DNA of 64,000 bases from assembly GCF_014905135.1 (NCBI RefSeq), contig NZ_CP041406.1, forward strand, positions 496,001-560,000, in the 5' to 3' direction. Origin of the DNA: Sulfurimonas paralvinellae (GTDB lineage: Bacteria; Campylobacterota; Campylobacteria; Campylobacterales; Sulfurimonadaceae). Made by a program: the position numbers and the translations under genes. The notes under the pieces were generated by a model. That model was not told where the DNA came from and did no database searches. It worked only from the letters and a program-made list of their open reading frames with translations. Below, in pieces: positions 10,722 through 64,000 of this stretch. Within the stretch, counting starts at the first letter, position 1. Each line of letters opens with the position of its first letter.

Positions 10722-10733
10722 AAAGGTTAGTTA

Positions 10734-11909: not shown

Positions 11910-11944
11910 CACTAATGTAACAGAGATTTTGATACGATGCATTT

Positions 11945-12682
11945 ATGAATAAACATACAAAGTCTCTTCTTTTTTCTCTTGTTATTCACTCTCTTTTGCT
12001 GGCTGCTTTTATATATACTTATAAAACGGTCAGTGAAAGTTTATTCTCCAAGAAATCATCACCTCAAAAGAGAATCTGCATAAGTCTTGGCACCTTGACA
12101 AGTCAACCAAAGATAAAAAAAGAGACAGCAGTTGTTTCACAAAAAAAGCCTGCAATAAAAAAGAGTGTTCATAAAAAGCCACCACCTAAAAAGAAGTCTG
12201 TTAAAAAAGAAAAAGTGGTGCCAAAAAAGAAGACGAAAGTCCCTGAAACCAAACCTGTAAAAGAAGCCCCACAGAATAAAGTTCAAAAAGAGAAAGAAAC
12301 AGTAAAAGAGCCAGAAGAAAAAACTGTTCTTCCTGTCCCAACAAAAGGTGTGCAAAAAGAGGAAGACTGTCCTTTAGCCTGCTGCTCCCACCCATCTAAA
12401 GAACAGGTGTATACAGAGAAAAATCTCGCCATAATCGCAAAACTTTTGCAGAAAAACCTTTCTTATCCAAGACGTGCAAGAAAAAGAGGTATAGAAGGCG
12501 AGGTAATTGTGAAATTTACACTAAAAACGAATGCAGAGGTTACTGATATTGAAATTGTATCTTCAAAAAGTGATGTCCTCTCACGTGGCGCTGTAAAAAC
12601 ACTTGAAAACTTGTCAGGTAAATTCCCAAAACCGGATGAAGCTTTGACTCTGACTGTGCCGATTGATTATAAACTGCAGTAA
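11945..12682 (+). CDS. tonB: TonB energy-transducing protein
   Basis: Periplasm-spanning protein that passes proton-motive energy from ExbB-ExbD to outer-membrane receptors. One N-terminal membrane anchor (about residues 8-27), then a Lys/Pro/Val-rich linker (residues 55-135, many KKPPPKK-like segments), then the C-terminal TonB fold (about 160-245) with YPRRARKRGIEGEVIVKFTL and IDYKLQ at the end. Oddity: a CPLACC cluster just before the C-terminal domain. No exbB/exbD nearby; the facing TonB-dependent receptor at 14-16 kb is a likely client. Weak ribosome site; 35 nt after the second amt, so it may be read through from it. Confidence 0.9.
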   Translation: MNKHTKSLLFSLVIHSLLLAAFIYTYKTVSESLFSKKSSPQKRICISLGTLTSQPKIKKETAVVSQKKPAIKKSVHKKPPPKKKSVKKEKVVPKKKTKVPETKPVKEAPQNKVQKEKETVKEPEEKTVLPVPTKGVQKEEDCPLACCSHPSKEQVYTEKNLAIIAKLLQKNLSYPRRARKRGIEGEVIVKFTLKTNAEVTDIEIVSSKSDVLSRGAVKTLENLSGKFPKPDEALTLTVPIDYKLQ

Positions 12683-12726
12683 TTAATCACTTTAAATATT
12701 CCAAACAGCCATGCAAAAAACTCAAT

Positions 12727-14064: not shown

Positions 14065-16109
14065 TTATACTCAATCCCTGCATAAAAACTTCTAGGATCA
14101 GCAGGTGTATAATCCTCTTTTCCATAAGCATATCTAGCATTAACAGCATATTTTTTATCTGTAAAATTGGTTACTTTTGTAAAAATTCTTAATTTTTTAG
14201 AATAGACATAGTTAGCTTTTAAATTTCCAATGCTATAACCATTATATTTATTTACCGTATGTGCGTCATCCATCCAATAAGAACCTACATATTGCCATTC
14301 CGCCATTGCCGTTAAACCTTTTAAATACTTTGGTAGATAAAATAGTCTTGCATTGGCAAGTGTATTTGGAGCTCCTGAAATTTCATTGTTTCCAAACGTA
14401 GGATCATTATCATAATTATGTTTAGAATATGAATAGCTTATACTTGTTTCAAACTCTTTTGTTATCTCAGATCTAAGTGAGGCTTCTATCCCTTTATGTA
14501 TACTCGCACCACCATTTCTATAGCCACCGGTAGCTGAATCCCTTACAATAGTATCATCAATTGTCATATAGTAGGCAGCTAATTCAAGAAAAGATTTGTT
14601 AGAAAAACTTTTCTTTAGACCAATTTCATAAGTATTTGATTTTTCTGCATCAAGATTAATATTTTCATAACCTACTTTGACTGAGTAGAGTCTTGTAGCT
14701 TGTGGAATTCTAAATCCATTTGCATAACGAATATATAAGTTTAGATCTCTTTGTGGCATATAAGAGAGTGCAAGCTTTGGACTGAGATGATTATAGGAAT
14801 CTTTTCTATTTGCAGGTCTATAATATGTACCTGAACTGTCTTGTGAATTTTGAGCTAAATTATTGGTATAGTCATAGCTATTGTAATCATATCTTAACCC
14901 TGGAGATAATTTTAATGTATCTGTAACCATATAATCTACATGTACATAAGGAGCAATAGCAAAATAATCTACATCATAATCATATAAAGCACCTTTTGTA
15001 TATGTTGTAGCACCCCATCCCGTTGTTGTTACATTGAAGTCTTGGTTATATTTTAATGATGATTTTGTATATTCGCTATCAAAACCAAAGATTACTTTCC
15101 CCCAGTTTTTCTCATAAGTATTTCTTTGTAAAAACCCCAGAGTATAGAGTTCATTATCATTACTTGGAAGGTTCTTCTCCCATGTTGCGATATATCTATT
15201 CCTGTTATATCTAATATATGGCGTCATAGTTATCTCTAGATCATTATAGGAATAGTTGCTAAACTCTGCACTTATTTTAGCATAGTCAAATTTTCGTTTT
15301 ACATCTGTTTTTTGTAAAGCTGTGAAGTAGTTTGGATCATCACTTGCCGCTGTTGAACCATTTTCGATGTTTGCATAGTCATTAAAACTATCTGCTTGCT
15401 CAGCATCTGTTTTTGAGAAATTAAAAAGAACTTTAACATCATTGTCATCATTGAAAGTATGATCATATCGGATATTGGCTTCCGCTCTATCTGCTTTTGT
15501 GTGATCCCTCCAACCTTTTGAGTGCATATACGAAGCATTGGCACGATAAGCATTGTCTTTATCTAGGGTGTCGCTTGCTTCTACACCACCAGTAATATAG
15601 CCATAACTCCCACCCATACCTTTAATAAATATCTCTTGTGTTTTAGATGGTTTTTTTGCAGACTCAACATTTATAACAGCGGCAACAGCATCAGAACCAT
15701 AAAGAGCAGTTCCAGCCCCTTTTAACACTTCAACAGAAGATGCAGACTGATAAGTTGTATAAGCTAAGCCATTATGATTAAAAAATCCACTTGATTGGAC
15801 TGGAATACCATCTTGCATAAATAGATAATAAGGGCCCGTCCCCATTGGCATACGAATCGATGTCATATGACCAATAACTGAGCCGGTCTGCTCAATTCTT
15901 ACACCACTTAAAGAGTTCAGTAAATCTTTTTGGTAAATTACCTGGTCTAACTTTATCTCTTTTTCATCTTTTGTTGCAATACTTAAGGGTTGTTCAATAA
16001 CATTTTCGTCAACACCAGTTGCTGTTACACTAACGGGTGCAATTTGAACAACACTATCTGCTAATAAAGCAGATGCTATTAAAGAAATCCCCAATATTCT
16101 TTTTTTCAT
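14058..16109 (-). CDS. TonB-dependent outer-membrane receptor
   Basis: 683 residues: signal peptide (MKKRILGISLIASALLA), a possible TonB box around VSVTATGV, plug domain (about 45-155, with GVRIEQTGSVIGHMTSIRMP and EVLKGAGTALYGSDAVAAVINVE), then a 22-stranded barrel ending in aromatic-rich FYAGIEYKW with a terminal Trp. The plug and the C-terminal TonB_dep_Rec domain fit the siderophore/vitamin B12/metal receptor class. The ligand cannot be told. GGAG lies 5 nt before the ATG. Coupled to the PepSY gene downstream. This gene pair carries none of the CTCACGCA octamers common elsewhere in the window, which would fit later acquisition but does not prove it. Confidence 0.92.
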   Translation of the reverse strand: MKKRILGISLIASALLADSVVQIAPVSVTATGVDENVIEQPLSIATKDEKEIKLDQVIYQKDLLNSLSGVRIEQTGSVIGHMTSIRMPMGTGPYYLFMQDGIPVQSSGFFNHNGLAYTTYQSASSVEVLKGAGTALYGSDAVAAVINVESAKKPSKTQEIFIKGMGGSYGYITGGVEASDTLDKDNAYRANASYMHSKGWRDHTKADRAEANIRYDHTFNDDNDVKVLFNFSKTDAEQADSFNDYANIENGSTAASDDPNYFTALQKTDVKRKFDYAKISAEFSNYSYNDLEITMTPYIRYNRNRYIATWEKNLPSNDNELYTLGFLQRNTYEKNWGKVIFGFDSEYTKSSLKYNQDFNVTTTGWGATTYTKGALYDYDVDYFAIAPYVHVDYMVTDTLKLSPGLRYDYNSYDYTNNLAQNSQDSSGTYYRPANRKDSYNHLSPKLALSYMPQRDLNLYIRYANGFRIPQATRLYSVKVGYENINLDAEKSNTYEIGLKKSFSNKSFLELAAYYMTIDDTIVRDSATGGYRNGGASIHKGIEASLRSEITKEFETSISYSYSKHNYDNDPTFGNNEISGAPNTLANARLFYLPKYLKGLTAMAEWQYVGSYWMDDAHTVNKYNGYSIGNLKANYVYSKKLRIFTKVTNFTDKKYAVNARYAYGKEDYTPADPRSFYAGIEYKW

Positions 16110-16142
16110 TTGTACTCCAATTTTTTAATAAATTTTTAAAAT

Positions 16143-16148
16143 AGTATA
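16143..16148 (-). promoter_or_regulatory. Possible -10 box for the TonB-dependent receptor
   Basis: On the minus strand the sequence is TATACT, 34 nt before the receptor ATG. Upstream are two palindromes, TGATG-TG-CATCA (16180-16191) and TGTGTACACA (16196-16205), that could be operators. None resembles a full Fur box. Confidence 0.35.
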
Positions 16149-16268
16149 AAAAAATTGTTACAAAAGCGTTAAATGATTCTGATGTGCATCAAAAATGTGT
16201 ACACAAATGCAATGTGCTCAATCAAGTGTTTGTAAAAGTGCTTATTTTAGGGAGTTGTAGAGAAAAGT

Positions 16269-16343
16269 TGGTGACCCCGAGGAGAATCGAACTCCTGTAA
16301 CATGGATGAAAACCATGGATCCTAACCGCTAGACGACGGGGCC
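16269..16343 (-). tRNA. tRNA-Glu (UUC)
   Basis: On the minus strand: acceptor stem GGCCCCG pairing with CGGGGUC, anticodon loop UUUUCAU with anticodon UUC, TPsiC loop with GUUCGAUUC, and an encoded 3' CCA. 75 nt. Followed at a short distance on the same strand by nothing but the receptor promoter region; tRNA-Lys lies just upstream, so the two probably share a transcript. Confidence 0.95.
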
Positions 16344-16361
16344 AACTTAAAAGGTGTAAAA

Positions 16362-16437
16362 TGGTGTCCCGTGATGGATTCGAACCATCGGCCACATCAT
16401 TAAAAGTGACGTGCTCTACCAGCTGAGCTAACGAGAC
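16362..16437 (-). tRNA. tRNA-Lys (UUU)
   Basis: On the minus strand: acceptor GUCUCGU pairing with ACGGGAC, D-arm AGCUCAGCUGGUAGAGC, anticodon loop CUUUUAA with anticodon UUU, GUUCGAAUC in the TPsiC arm and an encoded CCA. 76 nt, 18 nt upstream of tRNA-Glu on the same strand. Confidence 0.95.
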
Positions 16438-16591
16438 ATATACTCTCTTTGTTAAGAGGTCGAAATTATAGACAAATCCTTTTAAGATGTCAAGCAAAAT
16501 AAGAAGAAATTTTAAATTTTATAGCTTTTATGCATATTAATCATCAATTAAATAATTTTTAACTAAAATCATTGCCAAATAAAGGAAATGA

Positions 16592-17593
16592 ATGCAAATA
16601 TTTGGATATTTTGTCTTTTTGATACTGTTGATGTCTTTTTCGGGATGTTCGCAGCAAGTTCGTATCAAGGCGCTTGAACCTGCAAAGGTTGACAGAATCT
16701 CTCAAACAAAAAAAATAGCAGTGCTTCATTTTAAAAATGATAGAGTAGGTCTCGCACGAAAGATAGAAGCAAAATTGGCAAGTTTTAAGATTGACAACAA
16801 GAAATATTTTACAATAGTAAGCCGCAACGATTTCAATACTATCATCAATGAACAAAAACTTCAAAGCAGTGGTTTGGTAGATGAAGAGGGATCGGTTAAA
16901 GTGGGTGAGATCATTGGTGCGCAGGCTATTATTTCCGGAGATGTGCGACGTCCTGCAAAACAGGACAGCTATTTTTATGAGCCGCGGGTACGATGTGCCA
17001 ATGCAAAATGTAGTGAACTCTCTTACTATAATGTACGCTGTATGAAGCGTGTAGTCTCGCTTGCCGCGGAGGTGCGTGTCGTAGATGTCTCACATGGAGA
17101 TATCATCTATGCTGATACGCTCAGCAGAAACAGGGTCTTTAAGCATTGCAGTGACGACTCACGTGCCTTACCTTCTACATCAATGGTAGCACAACAACTA
17201 GCACAGAACATAGCGGATGATTTTACCTATCAATTGACACCGCATTATCGAAGCTTCTCCGTGACACTTTTGGATGATCCCGATCTTGATTATACATCGC
17301 AGCAGAAAAAACTCTTAAAGGTTTCTTTGGAATATATAGAGCAGGGAAGATATGACAAAGCAGAGCAGTTCTTAACACGTCTTATAGATTCGACAGGTGG
17401 GAAAAGCTACGTTGCTTTTTATAATTTGGGTGTCATTAAAGAAGCACAAGGAAAATATAAAGAGGCAAAAGAGTATTATGAGTATGCCGATAATCTGATG
17501 GTCGAACCGGTAGAAGAGATAAATGCAGCTGTTGTGCGTATAAACAGACTCATAGCAAAAAGAGAGAAAACAATGGAGCAGCTTAACAGATGA
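16592..17593 (+). CDS. CsgG-like lipoprotein with C-terminal TPR
   Basis: 333 residues. The signal peptide ends in a lipobox (FSGC, Cys19), so it is a lipoprotein, probably of the outer membrane. Residues about 40-230 resemble the CsgG/penicillin-binding-activator fold: KKIAVLHFKND, a LVDEEGSVKVGEIIGAQ segment and a QAIISGDVRR strand. Four or more cysteines (CANAKCSE, RCMK, KHCSDD) are unusual and could form disulphides. The C-terminal part (about 240-330) is one or two TPR units (YVAFYNLGVIKEAQGKYKEA). AAGGA precedes the start. The next lipoprotein gene overlaps it by 4 nt (ATGA). Role unknown; envelope assembly or secretion is an inference. Confidence 0.7.
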   Translation: MQIFGYFVFLILLMSFSGCSQQVRIKALEPAKVDRISQTKKIAVLHFKNDRVGLARKIEAKLASFKIDNKKYFTIVSRNDFNTIINEQKLQSSGLVDEEGSVKVGEIIGAQAIISGDVRRPAKQDSYFYEPRVRCANAKCSELSYYNVRCMKRVVSLAAEVRVVDVSHGDIIYADTLSRNRVFKHCSDDSRALPSTSMVAQQLAQNIADDFTYQLTPHYRSFSVTLLDDPDLDYTSQQKKLLKVSLEYIEQGRYDKAEQFLTRLIDSTGGKSYVAFYNLGVIKEAQGKYKEAKEYYEYADNLMVEPVEEINAAVVRINRLIAKREKTMEQLNR

Positions 17594-18585
17594 AAAAAAT
17601 GGTATACATTATAATGACCGCAATGCTTTTTTTGACAGCATGCGGCTCTGCAAACAGGGTTGTTGTGCAGCCAAAAGCGTTACCATCGTGGTACACCCAT
17701 CCGCCGCAATCAAATGCTTTTGAACTCTATGCAATCGGCGAAGGCAAGGAGAAAAAAGAAGCAATATCGAATGCTCTTACGCTCTTGCTATCGACGCTTA
17801 GTGTATCTATCTCTTCAAACTACAGCGCAAAAACAATTGTGAAAGAAGGAACACATTACAATAGTTCGGATGCAACCTATGTCAATGAAACACACAGTGA
17901 AGTACAAAAGATAAAAGTAACAAACTATGAACTGCTTCAATCGGAGAAACTCGGGTTTAAACATTATGCTGTTTTGATAAAAGTCGATAAGAAGCAGTTC
18001 TTTAACGGACTGAAGCAGGATATAGAGCAGCAGCTTAACATCATTGAAATGCGTGAGCAAAATATAGGCAGCAAGAATGCCATAGAACAACTTGCCTTTT
18101 ATAGACAATCATTAGATTCGCTAAAAGAGCTGCAAAATTCATTAGCTGTGATGAAAGTTTTAGAGCCGAAATTCAGTGCAGAGAGTTATCTGCAAAGGTA
18201 TGAAAGACTTCGTAAAAAGCATGATGCCTTATTGCAGCGTATAAGCTTTTGGGTGAAATCGAACTATCAGCCATTGGCTTTTCCGATTGCAAAGGGAATC
18301 AGTGCTAAAAAACTGACAATCAAAAATAGAAAAGATAAGTTTCATTTCAATGTCTTGATAGATGCGGATATAAAAAAAGCAAGCGCGTATGGATTTACAC
18401 TGGCTCGAGCGAACATAACTATTGCAACACAAGATGCTCACGCAAATGTCATAGCGAATAACTCCCTCAATCTTGTCGGTCAGTCATCCCAGGGCTACAG
18501 CATTGCGAAGCAGGATCTAGTGAAAAAATTGAACAGGCTCATTGAAAAAGAGGGCATTGAAAAAGTGCTCAATTTAGACATTTAA
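17590..18585 (+). CDS. LPP20-like lipoprotein
   Basis: 331 residues with a lipobox at LTAC (Cys18). The region at about residues 30-140 (LPSWYTHPPQ, ELYAIGEGKEKKEAISNALTLL, then a beta-rich stretch with YAVLIKVDKKQF) is like the LPP20/FlgP family: a short helix carrying alternating Ala/Lys followed by a beta sheet. The middle (about 145-215) is a likely coiled coil, and the C-terminal part is not recognised. Its start overlaps the stop of the CsgG-like gene (ATGA), so the pair is one unit. CsgG-like plus LPP20-like lipoproteins recall the FlgO/FlgP pairing of Vibrio, but a flagellar role here is unproved. Confidence 0.65.
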   Translation: MKKMVYIIMTAMLFLTACGSANRVVVQPKALPSWYTHPPQSNAFELYAIGEGKEKKEAISNALTLLLSTLSVSISSNYSAKTIVKEGTHYNSSDATYVNETHSEVQKIKVTNYELLQSEKLGFKHYAVLIKVDKKQFFNGLKQDIEQQLNIIEMREQNIGSKNAIEQLAFYRQSLDSLKELQNSLAVMKVLEPKFSAESYLQRYERLRKKHDALLQRISFWVKSNYQPLAFPIAKGISAKKLTIKNRKDKFHFNVLIDADIKKASAYGFTLARANITIATQDAHANVIANNSLNLVGQSSQGYSIAKQDLVKKLNRLIEKEGIEKVLNLDI

Positions 18586-46083: not shown

Positions 46084-47334
46084 ATGCACACTCTTTCAGT
46101 CTCCGCGCTCAATGAACAGATAAAACATCTTTTAGAAGAGAGCTTTTCCCGTGTTTTTGTAGAGGGAGAACTCTCACGCATTACTTTCCATAACTCCGGG
46201 CATATCTATTTTACCCTCAAAGACAAAGATTCTGCAATATCAGCAGTTATGTTTCGCGGCAATGCCTCAAAACTCAAGTTTCGTCTTGAAGAGGGGATGA
46301 GGGTTGTCATTGACGGTGCCATTACGCTTTACAAACCGCGTGGAAGTTATCAGATAAACTGTTTTTCCATTGAGCCATCAGGACAGGGAGCTTTGGCACT
46401 TGCTTATGAACAGCTCAAGCAAAAGCTTTCTGCACAGGGGTACTTTAATCCTGAAACAAAAAAACAACTGCCAAAATTTCCTTCACGCATAGCACTTGTC
46501 ACCTCTGCAACAGGAGCGGCACTTCAGGATATGCTGCGAGTGGCAAATGCACGTTACAGACTTGTTGAGATAGATGTGCATGATGTCCTAGTACAGGGAG
46601 AGAGTGCGGCAGCTTCCATTGCTCACGCAATCAACATGGCTGATACAAAAGGGTATGATATCATTGTCATCGGTCGTGGCGGCGGGAGTTTGGAAGACCT
46701 GGGGGCTTTCAATGAAGAGATCGTTGCCGATGCTGTTTTTCATGCAAAAACACCTATCGTCTCAGCTGTCGGTCATGAGATAGACTGGCTTATCAGTGAT
46801 TTTACTGCCGATCTTCGAGCGCCGACACCGAGTGCGGCAATGGAGATGATATTGCCTGATACAAATGAACTCTATATGACGATAGATTCATTTTCACAGC
46901 AACTTACGCAGCTGCTGCGTCAAAAGATTCAGACAAAACAACAAGCTTTGCAGCATCTTAAACTCTCCTATGAACAGCATTCGGTTGAGAGAAAACTGCA
47001 GCAAAAAAGTGATGAGATAAAACAGTTGCGTGAGGCTTTTACGCAAAGCATAGATTTTAAACTTACATCACTGCAAAAAGAACTGCAAAATACAAAAGAT
47101 CGCTTTCCTCACGCAGTGGACTCCGTTGTCAATCTTGCGCAAAATCAACTTTTACATCTGCGAAAAATGCTAGAATCCAACCATCCAAAACTAAAAACAA
47201 AAAAAGGCTTTGCCCAGATTGCAAAAGAAGGTGTTGTTGTCGATATAGCCGATCTGAAAAAAGATGATATTTTCGAAGCACAGAGTGAGCATGTGGTCAT
47301 AGAGGCAAAAGTCTTGCAAACAAGGAAAATATAG
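46084..47334 (+). CDS. xseA: Exodeoxyribonuclease VII large subunit
   Basis: Single-strand DNA exonuclease subunit. 416 residues. N-terminal OB-fold (about 20-95: VEGELSRITFHNSGHIYFTLKD), catalytic core with FPSRIALVTSATGAALQD and VIGRGGGSLEDLGAFN (about 190-205), followed by coiled coil and the C-terminal DIADLKKDDIFEAQ. The small subunit (xseB) is not in this window. It has the densest set of CTCACGCA octamers, four in 943 nt. Ribosome site weak. Confidence 0.95.
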   Translation: MHTLSVSALNEQIKHLLEESFSRVFVEGELSRITFHNSGHIYFTLKDKDSAISAVMFRGNASKLKFRLEEGMRVVIDGAITLYKPRGSYQINCFSIEPSGQGALALAYEQLKQKLSAQGYFNPETKKQLPKFPSRIALVTSATGAALQDMLRVANARYRLVEIDVHDVLVQGESAAASIAHAINMADTKGYDIIVIGRGGGSLEDLGAFNEEIVADAVFHAKTPIVSAVGHEIDWLISDFTADLRAPTPSAAMEMILPDTNELYMTIDSFSQQLTQLLRQKIQTKQQALQHLKLSYEQHSVERKLQQKSDEIKQLREAFTQSIDFKLTSLQKELQNTKDRFPHAVDSVVNLAQNQLLHLRKMLESNHPKLKTKKGFAQIAKEGVVVDIADLKKDDIFEAQSEHVVIEAKVLQTRKI

Positions 47335-50613: not shown

Positions 50614-51099
50614 ATGTATCGCTCACGCAGAGTAAGAGAAGATCTGACATCTTTTTACGGTGGGCACTTTCCCTATGCTGCTACAAGCCAAACTTCACTA
50701 CGCTATGAAGTGACGGTCGGCATAGGCGGCAATCTCGGCGATGTGCGCCGCAGATTTGAACATCTTTTTTTTGCTTTAAAAAGAGAGAGACAGGTAGAAG
50801 TTCTGAGAACATCGTTGATTTTGAAAAATCCTCCTTTTGGATACAAAGAGCAGGATGATTTTTTTAACGCAATCATTGTTCTCAAGACCTCAATGCAGCC
50901 AAAAGAGTTTTTACGTTATCTGCATAGAGTTGAGAAAAGATTTGGCAGACGCAGAAGTTTTGCAAATGCACCAAGGACATTAGATTTGGATATTATATTT
51001 TTTGACAATCGTGAAGTAAAGACAAAAGATCTAACCATTCCACATGCCGCTTGGTTTGAGCGTGAGAGTGTTCTTATTCCGCTTGCAGGAGTGAAATAG
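50614..51099 (+). CDS. folK: 2-amino-4-hydroxy-6-hydroxymethyldihydropteridine diphosphokinase
   Basis: Transfers pyrophosphate from ATP to the pterin alcohol in folate synthesis. 161 residues, with an N-terminal extension of about 33 basic residues before VTVGIGGNLGDVRRRFE (family VGLGSNLGD). Catalytic parts RRRSFANAPRTLDLDIIFF (RTLDLDI) and IPHAAWFERESVLIPL are conserved. One CTCACGCA octamer is at 50622, in the Ser-Arg-Arg codons right after the start. Its stop overlaps flhF by one base (TAGTG). Confidence 0.94.
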   Translation: MYRSRRVREDLTSFYGGHFPYAATSQTSLRYEVTVGIGGNLGDVRRRFEHLFFALKRERQVEVLRTSLILKNPPFGYKEQDDFFNAIIVLKTSMQPKEFLRYLHRVEKRFGRRRSFANAPRTLDLDIIFFDNREVKTKDLTIPHAAWFERESVLIPLAGVK

Positions 51100-52391
51100 T
51101 GAAGATTCTGACATTTACAGGTAAGACACCTTCTGAAGCACTGAAAAAAGCGAAGATGGAGATCGGTGATGAGGGAATGCTCATCGAGACCAAAGAGATC
51201 CAAAAAAAAGCGCTTGGACGTGACGGACTCTATGAGATAGTGATCGGTATCGATGAAGATATGATCCCCGCAACATATCAAAAAGCTACAAAGCCGCTTT
51301 CAAAACAGCAGCCTATTAAAGATAAAAGTCAGGATGTTCTTTATGATATTTCCAATGCTGCAAGACAGATCTCTGAGATAAGCAAAGTCGTTGATGATCC
51401 GTTGGAAAAATATATGGGCCCGACAGCAGGATTGCAGGAAAGATCATTACAAGCAGCGGTTGAACCTACAGAGCTAAAAGAGATAAAATCTGAGATCAAC
51501 AAGCTTACGGATAAAGTCAAGATCATTCAAAATATGTTCTGGGATGAAAAAGCACCGGATCTGGAGCGTCAAATTCCACCGGAGTTTGCCGAAATATACA
51601 GACTTGCTTCACAAAGCGGTATGAATAAAGAGCATCTTGATATGCTGATGCAGATAACTTTGGAGCATATGCCTCTGAAGATGCGTGAAAATTCATCGAC
51701 TGTCAAGCGCTATTTTCAGACTATTTTACGAAAAATGGTACCGATACGTCGTGAAACACCTCCGGCTATGGGAACAAAAAAGGTCATTATGCTTGTCGGG
51801 CCTACGGGTGTCGGTAAGACAACATCCATTGCAAAACTCGCAGCACGCTACTCTTTTTTAATGGAAAAGAAATATAAGGTCGGTCTTGTCGTTTTAGATA
51901 CTTACCGTATCGGTGCCGTTGAACAGCTGATGCAATATGCCCGTATGATGAAACTTGGCATTGAGACGGTCGTGGATCCTCCGGAATTCTCTCACGCACT
52001 CGATTCGCTTAAATATTGTGACTATATTCTTATAGATACTATGGGATCATCGCCATACGATAAGAACAAAATAGAGAAGATTTACGAATGTCTCAATGCA
52101 AATACGACAGAGTATCATGTCGATGTTGTTCTCGTTATGCCTAGTTCTATAAAGTATGAAGATCTGAAAGTCACCTATGAGAATTTTTCATCTTTGGGTA
52201 TTGATACCCTGATGTTTACGAAACTAGATGAGACGATGGGGTTTGGAAATATCTTTTCACTGGCCTATGAGACGAAAAAGCCTATTTCGTATTTTTCCGT
52301 AGGGCAGGAAGTTCCCGAAGATCTTGTGACGGCGTCGAGTGACTTTTTGGTTGAGTGTCTACTGCATGGATTTAACAGGAGTAAAGCATGA
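51099..52391 (+). CDS. flhF: Flagellar SRP-like GTPase FlhF
   Basis: Places the flagellum at the pole and, with FlhG, sets its number. GTG start; 430 residues. N-terminal basic domain, then the NG core: GPTGVGKTTSIAKLA (about 233-247), LDTYRIGAVEQL, LIDTMGSSPYDKNK and FTKLDETMGFGN. The next gene, flhG, overlaps by 4 nt. One CTCACGCA octamer (51991). Together with flgR and fliA it governs the flagellar hierarchy in Campylobacter. Confidence 0.96.
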   Translation: MKILTFTGKTPSEALKKAKMEIGDEGMLIETKEIQKKALGRDGLYEIVIGIDEDMIPATYQKATKPLSKQQPIKDKSQDVLYDISNAARQISEISKVVDDPLEKYMGPTAGLQERSLQAAVEPTELKEIKSEINKLTDKVKIIQNMFWDEKAPDLERQIPPEFAEIYRLASQSGMNKEHLDMLMQITLEHMPLKMRENSSTVKRYFQTILRKMVPIRRETPPAMGTKKVIMLVGPTGVGKTTSIAKLAARYSFLMEKKYKVGLVVLDTYRIGAVEQLMQYARMMKLGIETVVDPPEFSHALDSLKYCDYILIDTMGSSPYDKNKIEKIYECLNANTTEYHVDVVLVMPSSIKYEDLKVTYENFSSLGIDTLMFTKLDETMGFGNIFSLAYETKKPISYFSVGQEVPEDLVTASSDFLVECLLHGFNRSKA

Positions 52392-53272
52392 TAGGCCATC
52401 AAGCTGAAAAACTCGAAGAACTGGTAGCATCCAATACAAAAGCCGGCCCTAGAAAATCCAAAAAAACACGTTTTATTGCCATCACATCAGGCAAAGGCGG
52501 TGTCGGTAAAAGTACAATAAGCTCAAATCTTGCATACACTTTGGCACAGCGTGGACTTAATGTCGGTATCTTTGATGCAGATATCGGTCTTGCAAACCTC
52601 GATGTGATGTTTAACGTTAAGATAAAGAAAAATATCCTACATGTTTTAAAAGGTGAAGCGACAGTCAGTGATATACTTATCCCTATAACGCGAAATTTGA
52701 TTCTTATTCCGGGTGAAAGCGGTGATGAGATACTCAAATACGCTGATATGGCACTTTTTGAGCGCTTTATGGAAGAGGCACAGGTGCTGGATAAACTTGA
52801 TGTAATGATCATAGATACAGGTGCCGGAATAGGTGAGCATATTCAAATGTTTCTCGATGCGGCAGATGATGTCATCGTCGTGACTGTTCCTGACCCGGCT
52901 GCTATTACTGATGCTTATGCGACAATCAAAACGATTGCCGCCTTGCGTGATGATGTCGGCATGATAATGAATCAGGTAAAAAGTGAAAAAGAAGCGGTAG
53001 GTGTTTTTGAAAAGATAAAAAAAGTTGCCCGTGCAAATATCGGCAGTGATTTGGACTTGACACTCGTGGGGAAAATAAATGCTGATGCGAAAGTTGCCAG
53101 TGCCATTAAACAAAGAGCACTCTTCTCAGCACTCTATCCATCGGCTTTGGCAACGAAAGATATAGAAGCTATAGCGAATAAGGTGGCTCTTAAGCTGGAA
53201 CGAAATGTGCTGGTTACTTCAAACGAAAGTGGACTCAGTGGCCTGTTTAGAAGGCTTATGGATCATTTTTAA
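52388..53272 (+). CDS. flhG: MinD-like ATPase FlhG
   Basis: 294 residues. Deviant Walker A SGKGGVGKSTISSNLA at 34-49, Walker B IIDTGAGIGEHI, and a MinD-type amphipathic C-terminus. The ParA/MinD fold restrains FlhF and limits flagellar number. Its stop lies 17 nt before a small membrane gene. The family hallmark, the FlhF-FlhG pair with a 4-nt overlap, is clear. Confidence 0.95.
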   Translation: MIGHQAEKLEELVASNTKAGPRKSKKTRFIAITSGKGGVGKSTISSNLAYTLAQRGLNVGIFDADIGLANLDVMFNVKIKKNILHVLKGEATVSDILIPITRNLILIPGESGDEILKYADMALFERFMEEAQVLDKLDVMIIDTGAGIGEHIQMFLDAADDVIVVTVPDPAAITDAYATIKTIAALRDDVGMIMNQVKSEKEAVGVFEKIKKVARANIGSDLDLTLVGKINADAKVASAIKQRALFSALYPSALATKDIEAIANKVALKLERNVLVTSNESGLSGLFRRLMDHF

Positions 53273-53289
53273 TAATGTTGGGGTAGTAT

Positions 53290-53625
53290 ATGTTAGGTGA
53301 GAATTTTGTCTATTTCTTTACAGTGCTTGGCTTTTTTGTCGGTACTATTTTTGGCATTTTAAAGTCATTTGATGCTGAAGGATTGATAACATACACCTTT
53401 CTCATTACAACGTTCTTTTATCTTTTTTCGCATATTATTGTCGCATTTTACTATAGAACGATCGTTGTCAAAGCCTATAACTTTCCAAAAGAGAGGCATG
53501 AGATAGAACTTGACCTTTTTGTTAAAGAGATAAACAAACGTGAAAAGCTGATAGATTCGGCATGCAGGCTTACTGATGCGGCGATGAAGATGAATAATGA
53601 AGATATGGCAGGGCAGAAGCTATGA
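53290..53625 (+). CDS. Small membrane protein between flhG and fliA
   Basis: 111 residues, two hydrophobic helices (about 4-25 and 33-55), then a charged helical tail (KINKREKLIDSACRLTDAA). It corresponds in position to the uncharacterised Cj0062c of C. jejuni. Ribosome site GGGG tagtat. It overlaps fliA by 4 nt (ATGA), so it belongs to the flagellar operon; a role in motility is inferred only from place. Confidence 0.75.
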   Translation: MLGENFVYFFTVLGFFVGTIFGILKSFDAEGLITYTFLITTFFYLFSHIIVAFYYRTIVVKAYNFPKERHEIELDLFVKEINKREKLIDSACRLTDAAMKMNNEDMAGQKL

Positions 53626-54308
53626 TGGCAAATGCATATGTCCAGGACCTCAAACATAAAGAAGATGAACTGGCAATTCAATATCTTCCTGCTGTAAAAG
53701 CAATGGCATTTCGTCTCAAAGAGCGGCTTCCGAGTTCTGTTGATTTTTCCGATCTTTCAGCAATAGGTACTGAAGAATTGATAAAACTGGCCCGCCGCTA
53801 TGATGAAAACTTGAATGATTCTTTTTGGGGGTATGCCAAAAAGAGAGTCTATGGGGCAATGCTCGATTACCTAAGAAGTCTTGACATTCTTTCACGGGCA
53901 AGTCGTAAACTGGTTAAACAGATAGACTATGCTGTTGAAGAGTATCGTTTAACGCATGATGAAGAGCCAAGTGATGAAGAACTTGCAGAAATGTTGGAAG
54001 AAGACATTGATAAGGTGCATGAAGCAAGGGTGGCCTCGAGTATTTATACGGTGATGCCGCTTCATGATCAGCTTCAAGTCGGTGATGAAGGTGCAGCACT
54101 TGCACAGATAGAGAAAGATGAACTTGTTGAGGTTATTAAAAAAGTGCTCTCGACATATAAAGAGCGTGAGCAGATGATTATTCAGCTTTACTATTTTGAA
54201 GAGTTGACACTCAAAGAGATAAGCGATATACTCAATATAACTGAATCAAGAATTTCACAGATTCATAAATCGGTAATACAAAAAATTAAAGCAGGGATAG
54301 GGGCATAG
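53622..54308 (+). CDS. fliA: Flagellar sigma factor FliA (sigma-28)
   Basis: 228 residues. Region 2 (AMAFRLKERLPSSVDFSDLSAIGTEELIKLARRYD, in parts) and region 4 (YFEELTLKEISDILNITESRISQIHKS) with the sigma-28 helix-turn-helix. Drives late flagellar and chemotaxis promoters; usually restrained by FlgM (not here). Start ATG overlaps the preceding gene; fliM starts one base after the stop. Confidence 0.96.
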   Translation: MMANAYVQDLKHKEDELAIQYLPAVKAMAFRLKERLPSSVDFSDLSAIGTEELIKLARRYDENLNDSFWGYAKKRVYGAMLDYLRSLDILSRASRKLVKQIDYAVEEYRLTHDEEPSDEELAEMLEEDIDKVHEARVASSIYTVMPLHDQLQVGDEGAALAQIEKDELVEVIKKVLSTYKEREQMIIQLYYFEELTLKEISDILNITESRISQIHKSVIQKIKAGIGA

Positions 54309-54309
54309 T

Positions 54310-55404
54310 ATGGCAGATATACTTTCGCAAGAAGAGATAGATGCGCTTCTGGATGTCGTTGAAGATGAAGGTGATGAGGTCCTAGAGAGCGGTGATGACA
54401 ATCTTTTGCCTCAGCGACAGGTAACACTCTATGACTTCAAGCGTCCTAACCGTGTCTCAAAAGAGCAGCTGCGTGCTTTTCGCGGTGTTCATGACAAAAT
54501 GGCACGTTCGCTTGCTTCGCAGATATCATCCATCATGCGTTCCATTGTAGAGATTCAGCTTCACTCTGTTGATCAGATGACCTATGGCGAGTTCTTGATG
54601 AGTCTGCCAAATCCTACAAGTTTTAATGTTTTTTCCATGAAACCACTTGAAGGAAGCGGCGTCATTGAGATAAATCCTTCCATTGCATTTCCGATGCTTG
54701 ACCGTCTTTTGGGTGGAAAAGGAGAGCCATTTGATGCCAGTCGAGAGTTCTCAGATATAGAGCTCTCACTCTTTGAAACAATCCTGCGTGTTATGATGAG
54801 CACACTCAAAGAGGCTTGGGGACCTGTCATGGATGTTTATCCGACAGTCGAATCAAAAGAGTCCTCTCCAAATGTTGTGCAGATTGTCGCACAAAATGAG
54901 ATCGTTGTGATGGTTGTAATGGAAATCATCATCGGACACAGTTCAGGAATGATGAACATCTGTTATCCTGTAATCTCTCTCGAGCCGATATTGCCAAAGC
55001 TGGCTTCTCGTGATCTTATGCTGAATGAGACCAGTTCAAAAAAGAGTAGAAACACAGAACTAAAAGTACTTCTTGGTGGTGCCAAGGTTGATGTAGAAGC
55101 CAATTTAGGGGATGCTGATCTCTCTATGGCAGAGATTTTAGATTTAAAAGTCGGTGATGTACTGAGACTTTCAAGTCCGGCAAATGATATCGTAACTGTA
55201 GCCGTTGACGGCAAAGAACGCTTTCATGGTGAGATAGGACTGCGTCGTTTTAGAAAATCTATTCAGATTACAGAAGTGATTGAAACAGAAAAAGATGCTG
55301 TTAAACGTGCATTGGAAAATCTTGAAAAACAGAGACATGAAAAGATCTCCGGTGTTCGGGATATAATTCATGAAGATGAAACAGCAGAAGATGAGGATAT
55401 ATAG
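54310..55404 (+). CDS. fliM: Flagellar motor switch protein FliM
   Basis: 364 residues. N-terminal CheY-binding peptide ADILSQEEIDALLD (residues 2-15), the middle CheC-like domain with MIEIN/IEINPSIAFPMLDRLLGG (split), and the C-terminal SpoA domain (about 270-340). Part of the C-ring that reverses motor direction. A GVHDKMARSLASQI helix supports the call. It continues directly into fliY. Confidence 0.96.
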   Translation: MADILSQEEIDALLDVVEDEGDEVLESGDDNLLPQRQVTLYDFKRPNRVSKEQLRAFRGVHDKMARSLASQISSIMRSIVEIQLHSVDQMTYGEFLMSLPNPTSFNVFSMKPLEGSGVIEINPSIAFPMLDRLLGGKGEPFDASREFSDIELSLFETILRVMMSTLKEAWGPVMDVYPTVESKESSPNVVQIVAQNEIVVMVVMEIIIGHSSGMMNICYPVISLEPILPKLASRDLMLNETSSKKSRNTELKVLLGGAKVDVEANLGDADLSMAEILDLKVGDVLRLSSPANDIVTVAVDGKERFHGEIGLRRFRKSIQITEVIETEKDAVKRALENLEKQRHEKISGVRDIIHEDETAEDEDI

Positions 55405-56277
55405 ATGAGTGATTTTATTAAACTCTTTGAAGAAGAGACGGTAGGTACGATTGAAGCACTTGTTGGCACAGCACCATCATTGGAATTGAAAGAAGAGCAA
55501 GAGTTAAGTATCATATCCAATATAGTACCGCCAATCGTTCTTGTAAAGATTTCAATAACAGGTGATGTTGATGCTGATGTAATGGTGGCATTTCCACCAA
55601 ATCTAGTAGCTTCACTCTCTGATATGATGATGGGTGAAGATCCAAGTGAGCGAGACGATGTCAATGATGACGACATGGATGCTGCAAAAGAGATAGTTTC
55701 AAATATATTCGGTGCTATTTCAAATGCACTCTCAGCGCAGAAAGAGTTGCCGGTACTCTCTTTTTCAGTAGAGAGCATAGAGCTTGTTAAAGATGATGAC
55801 GAAGTAAGTTTGGAAGCTTTTAACAGGATGTTTGTTTACAAGTTTGCACTTGATAATATTCACTCCCTTATGATGTTCATTATTGATGAAAAACTTTACA
55901 ATGCACTTTATGACTCCAGCAAAGAGACAAGTGCAGCTGTGGCAGGTACATCAAACGATAGTTACACTGAGCATAATTGTGAAGGTGAAGCTGTCAACCT
56001 AAGCAGTGAAGAGATGAAGAACATCGCACTCATTATGGATGTGAAATTACCTGTTCGAGTGCGTATCGGTAAAAAACGAATGCTTTTAAAAGATGTACTT
56101 AATATGGATATAGGATCTGTGATAGAGCTTAACCAGTTAGCGAATGATCCACTTGAAATCTTGGTAGATAATCATGTTATAGCTCAAGGAGAAGTCGTTA
56201 TAGTTGATGGAAACTTCGGTGTTCAGATAACAACGATAGGAACGAAAAAAGAACGTCTTAATCAACTTAAAGGTTAA
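55405..56277 (+). CDS. fliY: Flagellar motor switch protein FliY
   Basis: 290 residues, begins at the base after the fliM stop. The N-terminal part (1-190) is a CheC-like phosphatase-type fold ([37 protein letters not shown]), and the C-terminal 85 residues are a FliN/SpoA domain ([41 protein letters not shown], in parts). This fusion form replaces or joins FliN in Campylobacterota. Some relatives have CheY-P phosphatase activity; the sites are not clear here. Confidence 0.93.
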
Positions 56278-56300
56278 GCGTTAATATTAAGGAAAAGAAA

Positions 56301-57332
56301 ATGTCACCGAAAAAAAAGGTGCTTGTAGGTATGAGCGGAGGTGTTGACTCCACAGTTACCACACTTTTGTTAAAAGAAGAAGGCTATGAAGTAGAAGGCC
56401 TTTATATGAAACTGCACTCAAAGCCGGGATATCATGAGATACATCAGGCACGTGCACAAAAAGCTGCTGATTTTGTCGGTATCAAACTTCATGTACTTGA
56501 TCTGCAGGAAAAATTCAATAAAAATGTATTTCAGCCGTTTATAGATACATATGCCGAGGGAAAAACACCAAATCCCTGTGCACTTTGTAATCGTACAATG
56601 AAATTTGGAGAGATGATACAGTTCGCCGATCAAATAGGTGCAGATTATCTAGCAACCGGACACTATATAAAAACAGATGGTGAGTTTTTTTATCAAGCAG
56701 AAGATGATACAAAAGATCAGAGCTATTTTCTTTTTTATGTAAACAAAGAGATTCTGCCAAGACTTAAATTTCCACTTGGAGAGAGAAAAAAAAGTGACAT
56801 AAAAAGATTGGCAGCTTCCATTAAAGGTTTGGAGTCTTTCGCATCACAGGCTGAATCAAGTGAAATATGTTTTGTTGAAACTACATATACAGATGTATTA
56901 AAAGATCATGTTCAAGTAGATCAGGTGGGTGAAGTACTTGATACACAAGGCAATGTTGTCGGTGAACATAAGGGGTATATGCATTATACAATTGGAAAAC
57001 GTCGCGGTTTCACTGTAAAAGGTGCACATGACCCTCACTTTGTTACGAAGATCATCCCTGAAAAAAACCAGATAATCGTAGGTAAAAGAGAAGATCTTGC
57101 ATGTAATGAAGTTGTCATAGATAATCTTAACATGTTTCATGATGAAAAAGAGTTTGATACAACTGTAAAATTACGTTATCGAACAAAAGCAGTAAAATGT
57201 CATGTAAAAATAGAAGATGATAAAGCGCATATAAAATTAGAAGAGGGTGTATTCGGTGTTGCTGTTGGTCAGGCTGCTGTTTTTTATGATGATGATAAGC
57301 TCATAGGTGGTGGTTGGATTATCGATGCATAA
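56301..57332 (+). CDS. mnmA: tRNA-specific 2-thiouridylase MnmA
   Basis: 343 residues. Adenylates then thiolates U34 of Lys, Glu and Gln tRNAs. PP-loop [11 protein letters not shown] (10-20), catalytic Cys96 in [10 protein letters not shown], and Cys190 in [13 protein letters not shown] is 7 nt before the ATG. Follows fliY as in C. jejuni. No gene lies between it and the rRNA operon. Confidence 0.96.
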
Positions 57333-57418
57333 TCACCACATTTCACAGTAAAAAAAGAATTTAAAAACTTCTCCCCCCATCTTCCAGAACCTTAAGCGAT
57401 TTCTAAGCAACATCCCCC

Positions 57419-57424
57419 TATAAT
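57419..57424 (+). promoter_or_regulatory. rRNA operon promoter, TATAAT box
   Basis: A perfect TATAAT followed by a C-rich discriminator (TCCCCTCCAC). No clear -35 at 17 nt; this is typical of Campylobacterota. The start site would be near 57431. Strong position for an rrn promoter. Confidence 0.6.
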
Positions 57425-57488
57425 TCCCCTCCACAAACGAAGAGACTTCGAGTTGAAGTTTAAAGACCGGAAGGTTAAAGACGTTTGA

Positions 57489-57530
57489 GATCATTGAAAA
57501 CTAAGCAAGTAAGAGAGACTGATGTAACTA
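57489..57530 (+). other. Left arm of the 16S rRNA processing stem
   Basis: Matches, as its reverse complement, 59319-59359 downstream of 16S: about 35 of 41 positions pair, including TGAAAACTAAGCAAG uninterrupted. RNase III would cut this stem to free the 16S precursor. Confidence 0.85.
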
Positions 57531-57737
57531 TCAGTTAAATCTTATTTAGAAATAACTAATAAAACAACAACCGTCTATTCTATTTGAATTCTAGCTATTG
57601 ATATAGTTAGTTTCCCTATAGTAATAGATAACTATATTCATTAAGAGCTTAAGCACTCTTAATGTCTTAACAAAGCCAATGATTTTTAAATCTTGGGCAA
57701 AGATCAGTAATTAAATTTATTTATCTTTTCATAAACA

Positions 57738-59257
<1,520 letters not shown>

Positions 59258-59318
59258 CTAGAGTAAAGAGCGATCATTCGTTTGATCGGCTCAACACAAA
59301 AGAATCTCACAGAGATAT

Positions 59319-59359
59319 TAGTTACTTCAGTCTGCTTGCTTGCTTAGTTTTCAGTGATC
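59319..59359 (+). other. Right arm of the 16S rRNA processing stem
   Basis: Pairs with 57489-57530 (see there). It lies between 16S and tRNA-Ile. Confidence 0.85.
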
Positions 59360-59388
59360 TGTGTTCATTTGACATTCGATTATATCAA

Positions 59389-59465
59389 GGGCCTATAGCT
59401 CAGCTGGTTAGAGTGCACCCCTGATAAGGGTGAGGTCCCAGGTTCAAGTCCTGGTAGGCCCACCA
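59389..59465 (+). tRNA. tRNA-Ile (GAU) in the rRNA spacer
   Basis: 77 nt. Acceptor GGGCCUA pairs with UAGGCCC, D-arm AGCUCAGCUGGUUAGAGU, anticodon loop CUGAUAA with GAU, GUUCAAGUC in the TPsiC arm, encoded CCA. The tRNA-Ala that often accompanies it in this spacer is absent. Confidence 0.97.
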
Positions 59466-59766
59466 TTTTTGCACTATTTGCATCTGAAAAGTTAACTCAC
59501 GTACTTTAGTACGCTTCGTCACCTTTTCAAATACAACTAGCACAAAAACAAGTTTTTGCTAAAACTAAATATAAGCTTTCAAAGTTAGAAAGTTTATATT
59601 TGGTTTTTAAACCAAAAGTTCATTAAATTACAATTGTTAAAGTCAACAACATATAATTAAAGAGATTTAATTATAAACTAAATAACTACAAAAAAATGGA
59701 TTCATTCAATCTTGTTTGTTGTATTAGAGATAGTACATTAAATAAGGTAGTGAACGCAATATAGAA
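59466..59766 (+). other. Spacer between tRNA-Ile and 23S with hairpins and processing stem
   Basis: 301 nt without a gene. Contains CGTAC-TTTA-GTACG (about 59500-59513), AGCA-AAAAC type hairpin (59539-59561), a 16-bp stem (59565-59603, loop AAAGTTA, two G-U pairs), and at 59733-59754 the left arm of the 23S processing stem. No tRNA-Ala or other RNA gene found. Confidence 0.75.
59733..59754 (+). other. Left arm of the 23S rRNA processing stem
   Basis: Pairs with 62674-62695: the 22-nt arms match in all but one position (C/T), and the flanks pair further with gaps (TCTT-TTTG region). Expected RNase III cut site. Confidence 0.85.
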
Positions 59767-62650
<2,884 letters not shown>

Positions 62651-62673
62651 TATGTTCTTACGAACGCTGTTGC

Positions 62674-62695
62674 TTCACTACCTTATTTAGTGTAC
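62674..62695 (+). other. Right arm of the 23S rRNA processing stem
   Basis: Pairs with 59733-59754. Between it and 5S lie hairpins TACCCC/GGGGTA (62753-62782) and GCGG/CCGC (62785-62797), of unknown role. The spacer 62651-62889 holds no gene. Confidence 0.8.
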
Positions 62696-62842
62696 GAATA
62701 GATTACACAAATAAGAAGAATCTTGAAACAAGTTCTTTAGTATGTTGACTTTTACCCCACTTATGCTTTAGCAACGGGGGTATCGCGGTTTAGCCGCAGA
62801 ACGATTGATATTTAATGAGTTACTTCAACTCTTATGATCCTT

Positions 62843-62891
62843 CAAGGTCAAATATAAGTTCATTACTCCAATGAATTTATACTTGATCTTG
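62843..62891 (+). other. Stem-loop immediately before 5S rRNA
   Basis: A 22-bp stem (62843-62864 with 62870-62891) and 5-nt loop ACTCC, all positions pairing with three G-U wobbles. It ends at the 5S start and probably marks a processing site. Confidence 0.7.
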
Positions 62892-63008
62892 TCTAGGTGG
62901 CTATAGAGAGAGGGAAACGCCTGGTCCCATTCCGAACCCAGAAGCTAAGCCTCTCATCGCTGATAATACTGCATCTTTCAGGTGTGGGAATGTAGGTCGC
63001 TGCCTAGT
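62890..63008 (+). rRNA. rrf: 5S ribosomal RNA
   Basis: The terminal helix GTCTAGGTGGC pairs with GCTGCCTAG, with CCGAACCCAGAAGCTAAGC in the middle. About 118 nt. GATCAA after it can pair with TTGATC before it. A T-rich stretch (63016-63050) follows, and no strong intrinsic terminator hairpin is seen. Confidence 0.95.
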
Positions 63009-63100
63009 TCGGATCAAATTTTTCTACTTTTTTATACTTTTCTTCATCATCTTTTTTTTCAAAGAATTATGTGTTATTATTTTAATAAACAAGGTCCTTT

Positions 63101-63781
63101 ATGCATAATGTCAATCCTCAAATACCTCAAGGCTGGAAAGATATTCTTCAAAATGAATTTTCAAAACACTATTTTATTGTTTTAAAACAATTTTTACTTG
63201 ATGAAAAATCTAAATACACTATATATCCGGAAAATAAAAATATTTTCAATGCCTATAACTCTATGGATTTTCATGATGTAAAGGTTGTTATTTTAGGTCA
63301 AGACCCTTATCATGGGACAGGGCAGGCACATGGGCTCTCTTTTTCAGTTAAAGACGGCGTTGCTTATCCTCCTTCATTAAAAAATATATTTACAGAGTTG
63401 GCAGATGACACAGGATGTTCATATCCAAGTAGTGGAAATTTGTCTAAGTGGGCAAAGCAGGGTGTTTTATTGCTCAATGCAGTTTTGACAGTGCGTGCAG
63501 GAGAAGCGAACTCTCATCGCTGTATGGGATGGGAACATTTTACAGATGCTACGATTCAAGCCATCAGTGAGAAGTTAGAGAATGTTGTTTTTATACTTTG
63601 GGGAAAACCTGCACAGATGAAAGAGAAGCTCATTGATACTTCCAAGCACCTTGTTCTAAAAGCTCCACATCCTTCACCTCTTTCATCATATAGGGGTTTC
63701 TTTGGATCAAAACCTTTTTCTAAAACCAATGAGTATTTAACAGCTCGCGGTAAAGAGCCTATAGATTGGTGTTTAGAGTGA
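63101..63781 (+). CDS. ung: Uracil-DNA glycosylase
   Basis: Removes uracil from DNA. 226 residues. Motif A GQDPYHGTGQAHGLSFS with catalytic Asp68, motif B HPSPLSSYRGFFGS near residue 190, and the aromatic region. AAGG lies about 6 nt before the ATG. It stands alone between the rRNA operon and a convergent nuclease gene. Confidence 0.96.
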   Translation: MHNVNPQIPQGWKDILQNEFSKHYFIVLKQFLLDEKSKYTIYPENKNIFNAYNSMDFHDVKVVILGQDPYHGTGQAHGLSFSVKDGVAYPPSLKNIFTELADDTGCSYPSSGNLSKWAKQGVLLLNAVLTVRAGEANSHRCMGWEHFTDATIQAISEKLENVVFILWGKPAQMKEKLIDTSKHLVLKAPHPSPLSSYRGFFGSKPFSKTNEYLTARGKEPIDWCLE

Positions 63782-63797
63782 TAAACTTTTAAAAAGT

Positions 63798-64000
63798 CTA
63801 ATATATAAACTCTGCAATTACCGGAAGATGATCTGAATAACCGCGTCCATAATGTTTTCGTGGTTTTCTCCATGACATCTGCCATCTGTAAAGAGATTTT
63901 CCTTTATAAAGGTAGGGTTTATTTAAAGTATGGATGGAACCGCATTTGTAGTCGATACCTTGGTTGTCAAGTAGTGCTTTTGTTACTAGAATATTATCAA
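63798..64000 (-). CDS. Endonuclease/exonuclease/phosphatase family protein, C-terminal end
   Basis: The last 67 residues of a gene that continues beyond the window. It ends RGYSDHLPVIAEFIY; SDHLPV is the C-terminal catalytic motif of the EEP (DNase I-like) family, with the His of the S-D-H triad. Upstream residues include GIDYKCGSIHTLNKPYLYKGKSLYRWQMSWR, without recognised motif. Convergent with ung. Substrate (DNA or other) cannot be told. Confidence 0.75.
   Translation of the reverse strand, partial: DNILVTKALLDNQGIDYKCGSIHTLNKPYLYKGKSLYRWQMSWRKPRKHYGRGYSDHLPVIAEFIY

Follow-up and report, generated by a model that had tools for sequence, protein, structure and literature searches.

The gene xseA, an ordinary host gene of the octamer CTCACGCA, lies within a 64 kb stretch of a Sulfurimonas chromosome that was analysed as a whole and is called the window here. 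The window contains 31 copies of the octamer on both strands. Relatives carry other words, termed dialects below, and some of these are found at sites aligned with octamers of the window. The main features, in window coordinates, are the following.

46084-47334, plus strand: xseA, exonuclease VII large subunit (Pfam Exonuc_VII_L, E 8e-78), with four octamers, one of them on the opposite strand
46173-46180, plus strand: octamer CTCACGCA in xseA, read in the frame C-TCA-CGC-A, Leu-Ser-Arg
46622-46629, plus strand: octamer in xseA, read in the frame CT-CAC-GCA, Ala-His-Ala (GCT CAC GCA); the aligned site in the relative L024 is CACATGCC
47027-47034, minus strand: octamer in xseA, TGCGTGAG on the coding strand, Leu-Arg-Glu; a copy absent from the xseA list of the preliminary description of this DNA
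47108-47115, plus strand: octamer in xseA, read in the frame CT-CAC-GCA, Pro-His-Ala (CCT CAC GCA); the aligned site in the relative L019 is CACATGCC
50622-50629, plus strand: octamer; the aligned site is CAAACGCA in L022 and TAAACGCA in L037, two relatives of the AAACGCAG dialect
57738-63008: complete rRNA operon (16S, a tRNA, 23S, 5S), without octamers
784-51998: span of the 31 octamers of the window
Octamers, first part (start and strand): 784-, 1140-, 4392+, 18050-, 18437+, 19711-, 20940+, 21289+, 21834+, 22585-, 23032+, 23119-, 23590+, 25455-, 25632-, 32746-
Octamers, second part: 34603+, 34671+, 35936+, 37981+, 43580+, 44356-, 44909+, 45041+, 46173+, 46622+, 47027-, 47108+, 49264-, 50622+, 51991+

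Abundance, form and placement of the octamer

The genome (2,078,871 bases in two contigs) contains 962 copies of CTCACGCA, divided 474:488 between the strands, and 33 copies of the reversed word. For the window, 100 dinucleotide shuffles give an expectation of 1.66 copies (sd 1.17, largest 5) versus the 31 observed. In a chromosome sample of 824 kb, made up of the window and 38 stretches of 20 kb each (L089-L126), the octamer is the most enriched of all 8-mers, with 379 copies versus 17 expected from dinucleotides and 16.8 from a third-order Markov model. The consensus extends by one base on each side to B-CTCACGCA-R: A is avoided before the word (0.08), and G or A follows it (0.88; G 51%, A 37%). 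Beyond these two bases, the profile of the sampled copies contains almost no information out to 16 bases on each side.

At positions 2 to 6, one-base variants of the octamer occur about as often as expected or less often; they are in excess at positions 1 and 8 and, for one variant, at position 7; examples in the sample are CTCACGCG (43 versus 8.0 expected) and CTCACGTA (33 versus 11.6). The partial form TTCACGCA is represented by 57 copies versus 30 expected in the same sample. Other words are also in excess there, e.g. AAAAGAG, apparently as a result of composition and codon use.

Most of the sampled copies are located inside ORFs (362 of 379, with 17 outside), at a density of 0.48 per kb versus 0.27 per kb outside, and their distribution within genes is flat, with no bias to gene ends. 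Even spacing was not found; the gaps are more clustered than random, 81 being shorter than 300 bp in the sample versus 51.7 +- 6.2 in random placement. Pairs within 30 bp are limited to two inverted and one direct among the 379 copies. A terminator role was rejected on account of the few copies outside ORFs and the rarity of inverted pairs, and restriction avoidance because the octamer is in excess, not depleted.

The octamer is missing from two sampled regions. The second contig (49.8 kb), which carries hydrogenase and hyp genes, contains none in the 40 kb that were read, where 18.4 would be expected, and none occurs in the 20 kb stretch L118 (C1 1150001-1170000; 28.9% GC), which encodes a type I-like restriction-modification set and a C5 methyltransferase. 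Gene content and composition suggest that these two regions are recently acquired DNA. Inside the window, the part from the last octamer at 51991 to 64000 is free of further copies and comprises the rRNA operon, flagellar switch genes, a ParA-type gene and a tRNA methyltransferase-type gene. Another octamer-free gap of 13.7 kb (4392-18049) includes, among others, gyrA, two ammonium transporters, a PepSY gene and a TonB receptor; the location of gyrA in this gap means that a core gene can be without an octamer.

With the leading strand assigned stretch by stretch from the sign of the GC skew, TGCGTGAG is distributed 212:167 in favour of this strand (379 copies; binomial p 0.024 versus equality). 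All other permutations of the same letters, taken together as a composition control, are distributed 6399:3575. Because these permutations lean more strongly than the octamer itself, the latter has no polarity of its own; it is nearly strand-symmetric in both halves of the chromosome and ranks about 1005th in polarity among the 5848 8-mers with at least 40 copies. Clearly polar words of the sample are GATGAGGT (40:2) and AGAGGGTG (44:7), which are better candidates than the octamer for FtsK-orienting or Chi-like signals. A word related to these two, GAGGGTGA, is enriched in the loci L021 and L037.

Codon and amino-acid choice at the octamer

The preliminary description had proposed that codons are selected so as to preserve the octamer, under a pressure that acts on DNA. 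The proposal is supported by synonymous shuffles (n=60), in which the protein and the overall codon usage are kept fixed: 361 coding copies are present versus 22 in the shuffled genes. On the coding strand, CTCACGCA occurs 209 times versus 10.9 (maximum 19), and TGCGTGAG 152 times versus 11.1 (maximum 19). The reversed words display no clear excess in these shuffles (12 versus 10.5; 5 versus 3.4). Five of the six control words are near or below expectation, the exception being CTCACGCG, one base off the octamer, with 16 copies versus 3.5. Since a large octamer excess remains when proteins and codon usage are held fixed, selection or drive on DNA is supported. This is a cleaner test than the codon tables presented below, which follow from the octamer excess and thus are not independent of it.

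The individual spellings from which the proposal started were recovered in the sequence. In xseA, His-Ala after Ala or Pro is spelled CT-CAC GCA at 46622 and 47108, while Phe-His-Ala is spelled with CAT GCA at 46741; Thr-His-Ala in the PepSY gene likewise has CAT GCA, at 13347. Matched as letters only are CTGCATGCA, corresponding to Leu-His-Ala with CAT GCA (His codon at 36818), and CTGCACGCA, corresponding to CTG CAC GCA, which had been named as an exception to the rule and is found at 34647 and a second time at 63492 on the minus strand.

The tables were compiled from 782 mechanically called ORFs of at least 100 codons, covering 824 kb of the chromosome rather than the whole genome. The anticipated excess of CAC before GCA, limited to His codons that follow a codon ending in CT, is present: CAC accounts for 84 of 94 His codons in this context versus 35 of 137 otherwise (Fisher p about 3e-23). 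The latter group comprises 25 of 61 after other codons ending in T and 10 of 76 after codons with a different last base, CAC making up 32% of all His codons in these ORFs. A preceding CT has little effect where GCA does not follow, CAC being used in 2 of 9 cases before other Ala codons and in 96 of 252 before other codons. The intermediate CAC share after other codons ending in T points to a preference for partial forms such as TTCACGCA as well.

The same holds for the remaining spellings of the octamer. The description had also pointed to Ser-Arg spelled TCA-CGC where CGC looks uncommon, and indeed this spelling is used in 59 of 96 cases between C and A versus 53 of 459 otherwise, CGC being 13% of the Arg codons. 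Leu-Thr is encoded by CTC-ACG in 66 of 132 cases before a codon beginning with CA versus 25 of 1167 elsewhere, and Arg-Glu by CGT-GAG in 141 of 180 cases after a codon ending in TG versus 165 of 626 otherwise. Judging from the over-use of the peptides PHA (3.4x), LRE (3.0x) and LTQ (2.5x) relative to independence, the choice of amino acids may be bent as well. A protein-level repeat was rejected, the octamer being read in five combinations of frame and orientation, and the sole empty one containing a stop codon.

Words of the genus and competence genes

Retention of the octamer at orthologous sites was measured in 21 of 80 loci. Of the 50 octamers aligned with six relatives that share the dialect (76-81% identity), 30 are unchanged versus 14-21% for any 8-mer. 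The locus L021 (79% identity), which falls inside the CTCACGCA clade and is without the word, has kept one of nine, and 14 relatives outside the clade (70-76% identity) have kept none of 150 versus 8-14% for any 8-mer. The aligned sites that hold the word of another dialect or most of it (46622, 47108 and 50622) give a hint only; such overlap is suggestive at most, because shared amino acids favour it.

The dialect words were first found in short loci and then counted in whole genomes, and the list of words is not exhaustive. The nearest named relatives are recorded as Sulfurimonas, S. indica among them, whose locus L011 contains 6 octamers in 12.3 kb. Among 37 genomes of the genus, including the one studied here, six carry 621 to 962 copies of CTCACGCA and the other 31 at most 75. 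Across the order (248 genomes, again with this one included), three are strongly enriched for CTCACGCA (G000, G020 and G098), all of this genus; the next-highest count in the order sample is 132 versus 63 of the control. Enrichment for AAACGCAG is clear in seven of the 37 genus genomes (G003, G009, G010, G014, G016, G023 and G029; 146 to 1822 matches), and for CACATGCC in two (G035 with 494 and G036 with 140). TACATGTAR is clearly enriched in a further group of seven (G004, G006, G011, G017, G032, G033 and G034; 281 to 1213 matches); because of its palindromic core a single site can be counted on both strands, and matches therefore outnumber sites and strand symmetry is uninformative. The palindrome TACATGTA is enriched beyond Sulfurimonas too, in the loci L029, L032, L033, L035 and L061, and G055, from another family of the order, has 2673 TACATGTAR matches.

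Strong enrichment for two words at once is seen in none of the 37 genus genomes, and 15 of them have no clear excess of any of the four. Weak excesses of AAACGCAG include those in G028 (124 versus 40), G018 (71 versus 29) and G019 (39 versus 8), as well as those in the CTCACGCA carriers G007 (101 versus 32), G027 (97 versus 34) and G022 (46 versus 14); weak excesses of TACATGTAR include those in G021 (148 versus 48) and G005 (77 versus 17). In the genome studied here, the AAACGCAG count is one-sided (111:30 between the strands), at least in part because of a tandem array:

L093:17326-20000 (C1 from 417326): 306 bp units, 8.7 copies, 100% matches, running to the end of the stretch

The three other words also exceed their synonymous shuffles (34 versus 3.8, 17 versus 1.5 and 47 versus 4.1), in loci mostly chosen for showing the word, of the 18 additional loci only L184 and L185 being used; a separate locus, L204, was left aside.

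The dialects follow phylogeny, as their labels are clustered on the tree of a single gene, xseA. The tree has 33 rows, one for the window and the others for 32 of the 80 loci; labels were given at 2.5 or more copies per 10 kb, which leaves 15 rows unlabelled. The labels need seven changes versus a shuffled mean of 16.4, and none of 200 shuffles gave as low a number. The AAACGCAG rows form one group, the CTCACGCA group includes L021, which is without the word, and the CTCACGCA, CACATGCC and TACATGTA labels need two changes each. The letters ACGCA are shared by CTCACGCA and AAACGCAG, and ACATG by CACATGCC and TACATGTA; inspection by eye reveals no core that the four words all have in common, with profiles made for three of them.

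A ComEC match was found in 56 of 60 genomes. It is missing in G003, G033 and G034, which are word-rich but incomplete (82, 78 and 73% complete, respectively). Other competence-type genes present are DprA, five prepilin-type matches and three strong T2SSE-type ATPases. Two of the prepilin genes are located about 7 kb from comEC, and of 12 comEC loci that were scanned, among them the one of the genome studied here, 11 have a prepilin gene nearby. These genes do not discriminate between genomes with and without a word, because all 15 genus genomes lacking a clear word have a ComEC match. The comEC gene of the genome studied here is interrupted:

L191:14863-15948 (C1 about 254863-255948): comEC, with an in-frame TGA after residue 361 of about 427

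About 65 residues past the TGA remain recognisable. The gene is broken in another carrier, G013, and open in the four other carriers that were fetched. The stop may reflect either a recent loss of competence in this strain or an assembly error.

A candidate DNA uptake sequence

The octamer occurs throughout the chromosome in both orientations, lies within genes in spite of the cost to codon choice, is missing from the sampled accessory DNA, is kept in orthologues and is swapped for other words in sister lineages. On these grounds it is likely to be a DNA uptake sequence that serves natural transformation and exists in different dialects among the Sulfurimonas lineages, the uptake itself being deduced from this pattern. 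The competence machinery would include a DNA receptor, probably one of the minor pilins, with a preference for DNA carrying B-CTCACGCA-R, and fragments of conspecific DNA would thus be taken up and recombined more often. Such an uptake bias (molecular drive) could spread the octamer and maintain it chromosome-wide against weak coding costs, and synonymous codons would be bent toward it as the copies spread. The lineages of Sulfurimonas may have switched specificity, each filling its genome with its own word. Several observations speak against this reading: the TGA in the comEC of this genome and the broken gene in G013, the three word-rich genomes that gave no ComEC match, the ComEC matches in genomes lacking a clear word, the clustered spacing, the rarity of inverted pairs, the flat distribution within genes in contrast to Pasteurellaceae, and the absence of the word from core genes such as gyrA; nor is an inner core, a usual companion of such sequences, obvious across the four words.

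Several other functions have to be weighed against uptake. Chi sites are short, over-represented and mostly coding words that are expected to be polar. The first three of these properties, and the retention at orthologous sites, would fit a Chi-like recombination hotspot read by AddAB/RecBCD. The lean of the octamer to the leading strand is, however, weaker than that produced by composition alone, the clearly polar words of the genome are different ones, polarity is impossible for the palindromic genus word TACATGTA, and the word changes within one genus, making a Chi-like site improbable. The spread of the octamer over the chromosome, together with its absence from the 40 kb read of the second contig, would agree with an FtsK-orienting (KOPS-like) sequence or another replication or segregation signal, yet its near strand symmetry in both chromosome halves and its low polarity rank leave very little probability for this function. 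Both the Chi and the KOPS readings are disfavoured by the lack of octamer polarity beyond the composition control.

The word might also be recognised by a DNA methyltransferase or another marking enzyme, with modification of the site guiding uptake or the recognition of self. This idea has a precedent in the same phylum in Campylobacter jejuni, which, according to an excerpt of the cited work, takes up DNA only with methylated RAATTY (PMC10046745), and the genome studied here has at least two DNA methyltransferase genes. Both of these, however, sit in an octamer-free stretch, and the variant excess at positions 1, 7 and 8 points to a graded preference, which resembles binding more than recognition by an enzyme; we therefore regard a marked site as unlikely. 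Genome-wide, coding and strand-symmetric placement with clustered spacing would also be compatible with binding of the octamer by an abundant protein of the chromosome (nucleoid, supercoiling or repair) unrelated to uptake. Such a protein would have had to switch its specificity repeatedly within one genus, at hundreds of sites or more each time, and to our knowledge repeated switching to different words with hundreds of sites each is a feature of uptake sequences only, which renders this explanation improbable. A functionless origin from bias in codon pairs, mutation or composition would find some support in the excess of other words such as AAAAGAG, but the octamer count (379 versus 17 or 16.8 expected), its occurrence on both strands and in all stop-free frames, and the flat behaviour of the reversed words under synonymous shuffles refute this explanation and leave it a negligible probability.

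Under the DNA uptake reading, we are inclined, on balance, to see here a further independent evolution of uptake-sequence transformation, in Campylobacterota. It would comprise at least four nearly exclusive Sulfurimonas dialects (CTCACGCA, AAACGCAG, CACATGCC and the palindrome TACATGTA), by which species living together in vents and sediments would be sexually isolated, and an outright switch of specificity rather than a change of a base or two. If true, this would extend uptake sequences to a phylum far from the known families, where a single genus of environmental chemolithotrophs has several dialects, and would provide a fresh test of molecular drive versus species barrier as the origin of such words. 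The natural dialect switches could be used for finding the receptor, and the words would give hints for making DNA that Sulfurimonas will take up. In the carrier genomes, gene and codon statistics are distorted by a DNA-level signal.

According to an excerpt of a 2025 paper, uptake sequences are known from no families other than Neisseriaceae and Pasteurellaceae (PMC12616744), and an excerpt of a 2025 review gives Neisseria as the example (PMC12236230). No report of an uptake word in Campylobacterota is found among the best matches listed from the open-access literature, preprints excluded. By title and abstract, the best 20 of 48 matches to the exact octamer string in the open-access literature concern neither uptake nor this phylum.

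The word of Sulfurimonas resembles the DNA uptake sequence (DUS) of Neisseriaceae, which is read by the minor pilin ComP, in several respects. Excerpts of the respective papers describe the DUS as a short word with hundreds to thousands of copies (PMC12616744), with lineage-specific dialects congruent with phylogeny (PMC3630211), that is absent from recently acquired genes (PMC2734928). Copy number, dialects that follow phylogeny, absence from apparently acquired DNA and the coding constraint imposed by intragenic copies are shared, and the Sulfurimonas word lies on both strands. The two differ in sequence and phylum, and candidates for the receptor here are prepilins encoded near comEC. Unlike the DUS dialects, which differ by a few bases, the four words of Sulfurimonas differ over much of their length, and unlike the DUS the Sulfurimonas word has little placement outside ORFs. 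Inverted pairs, which are common in Neisseria and Pasteurellaceae (often at terminators, although not essential), are rare here.

The uptake signal sequence (USS) of Pasteurellaceae is described, in an excerpt of the cited paper, as distributed genome-wide without a general orientation bias, one orientation being commoner in genes (PMC2346458). The Sulfurimonas word is similar in all three respects, with 209 versus 152 copies in the two orientations within genes. It has a different core, however, is without an AT-rich tract within 16 bases on either side, and lacks the gene-end bias of the USS. The RAATTY-dependent uptake of C. jejuni belongs to the same phylum and has in common with the system proposed for Sulfurimonas the discrimination of self from non-self in transformation, which in the latter would follow from the uptake reading. 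In C. jejuni, as far as the excerpt of that work goes, discrimination relies on the methylation of a short degenerate site (PMC10046745), whereas in Sulfurimonas a specific word of 8-10 bases is greatly enriched.
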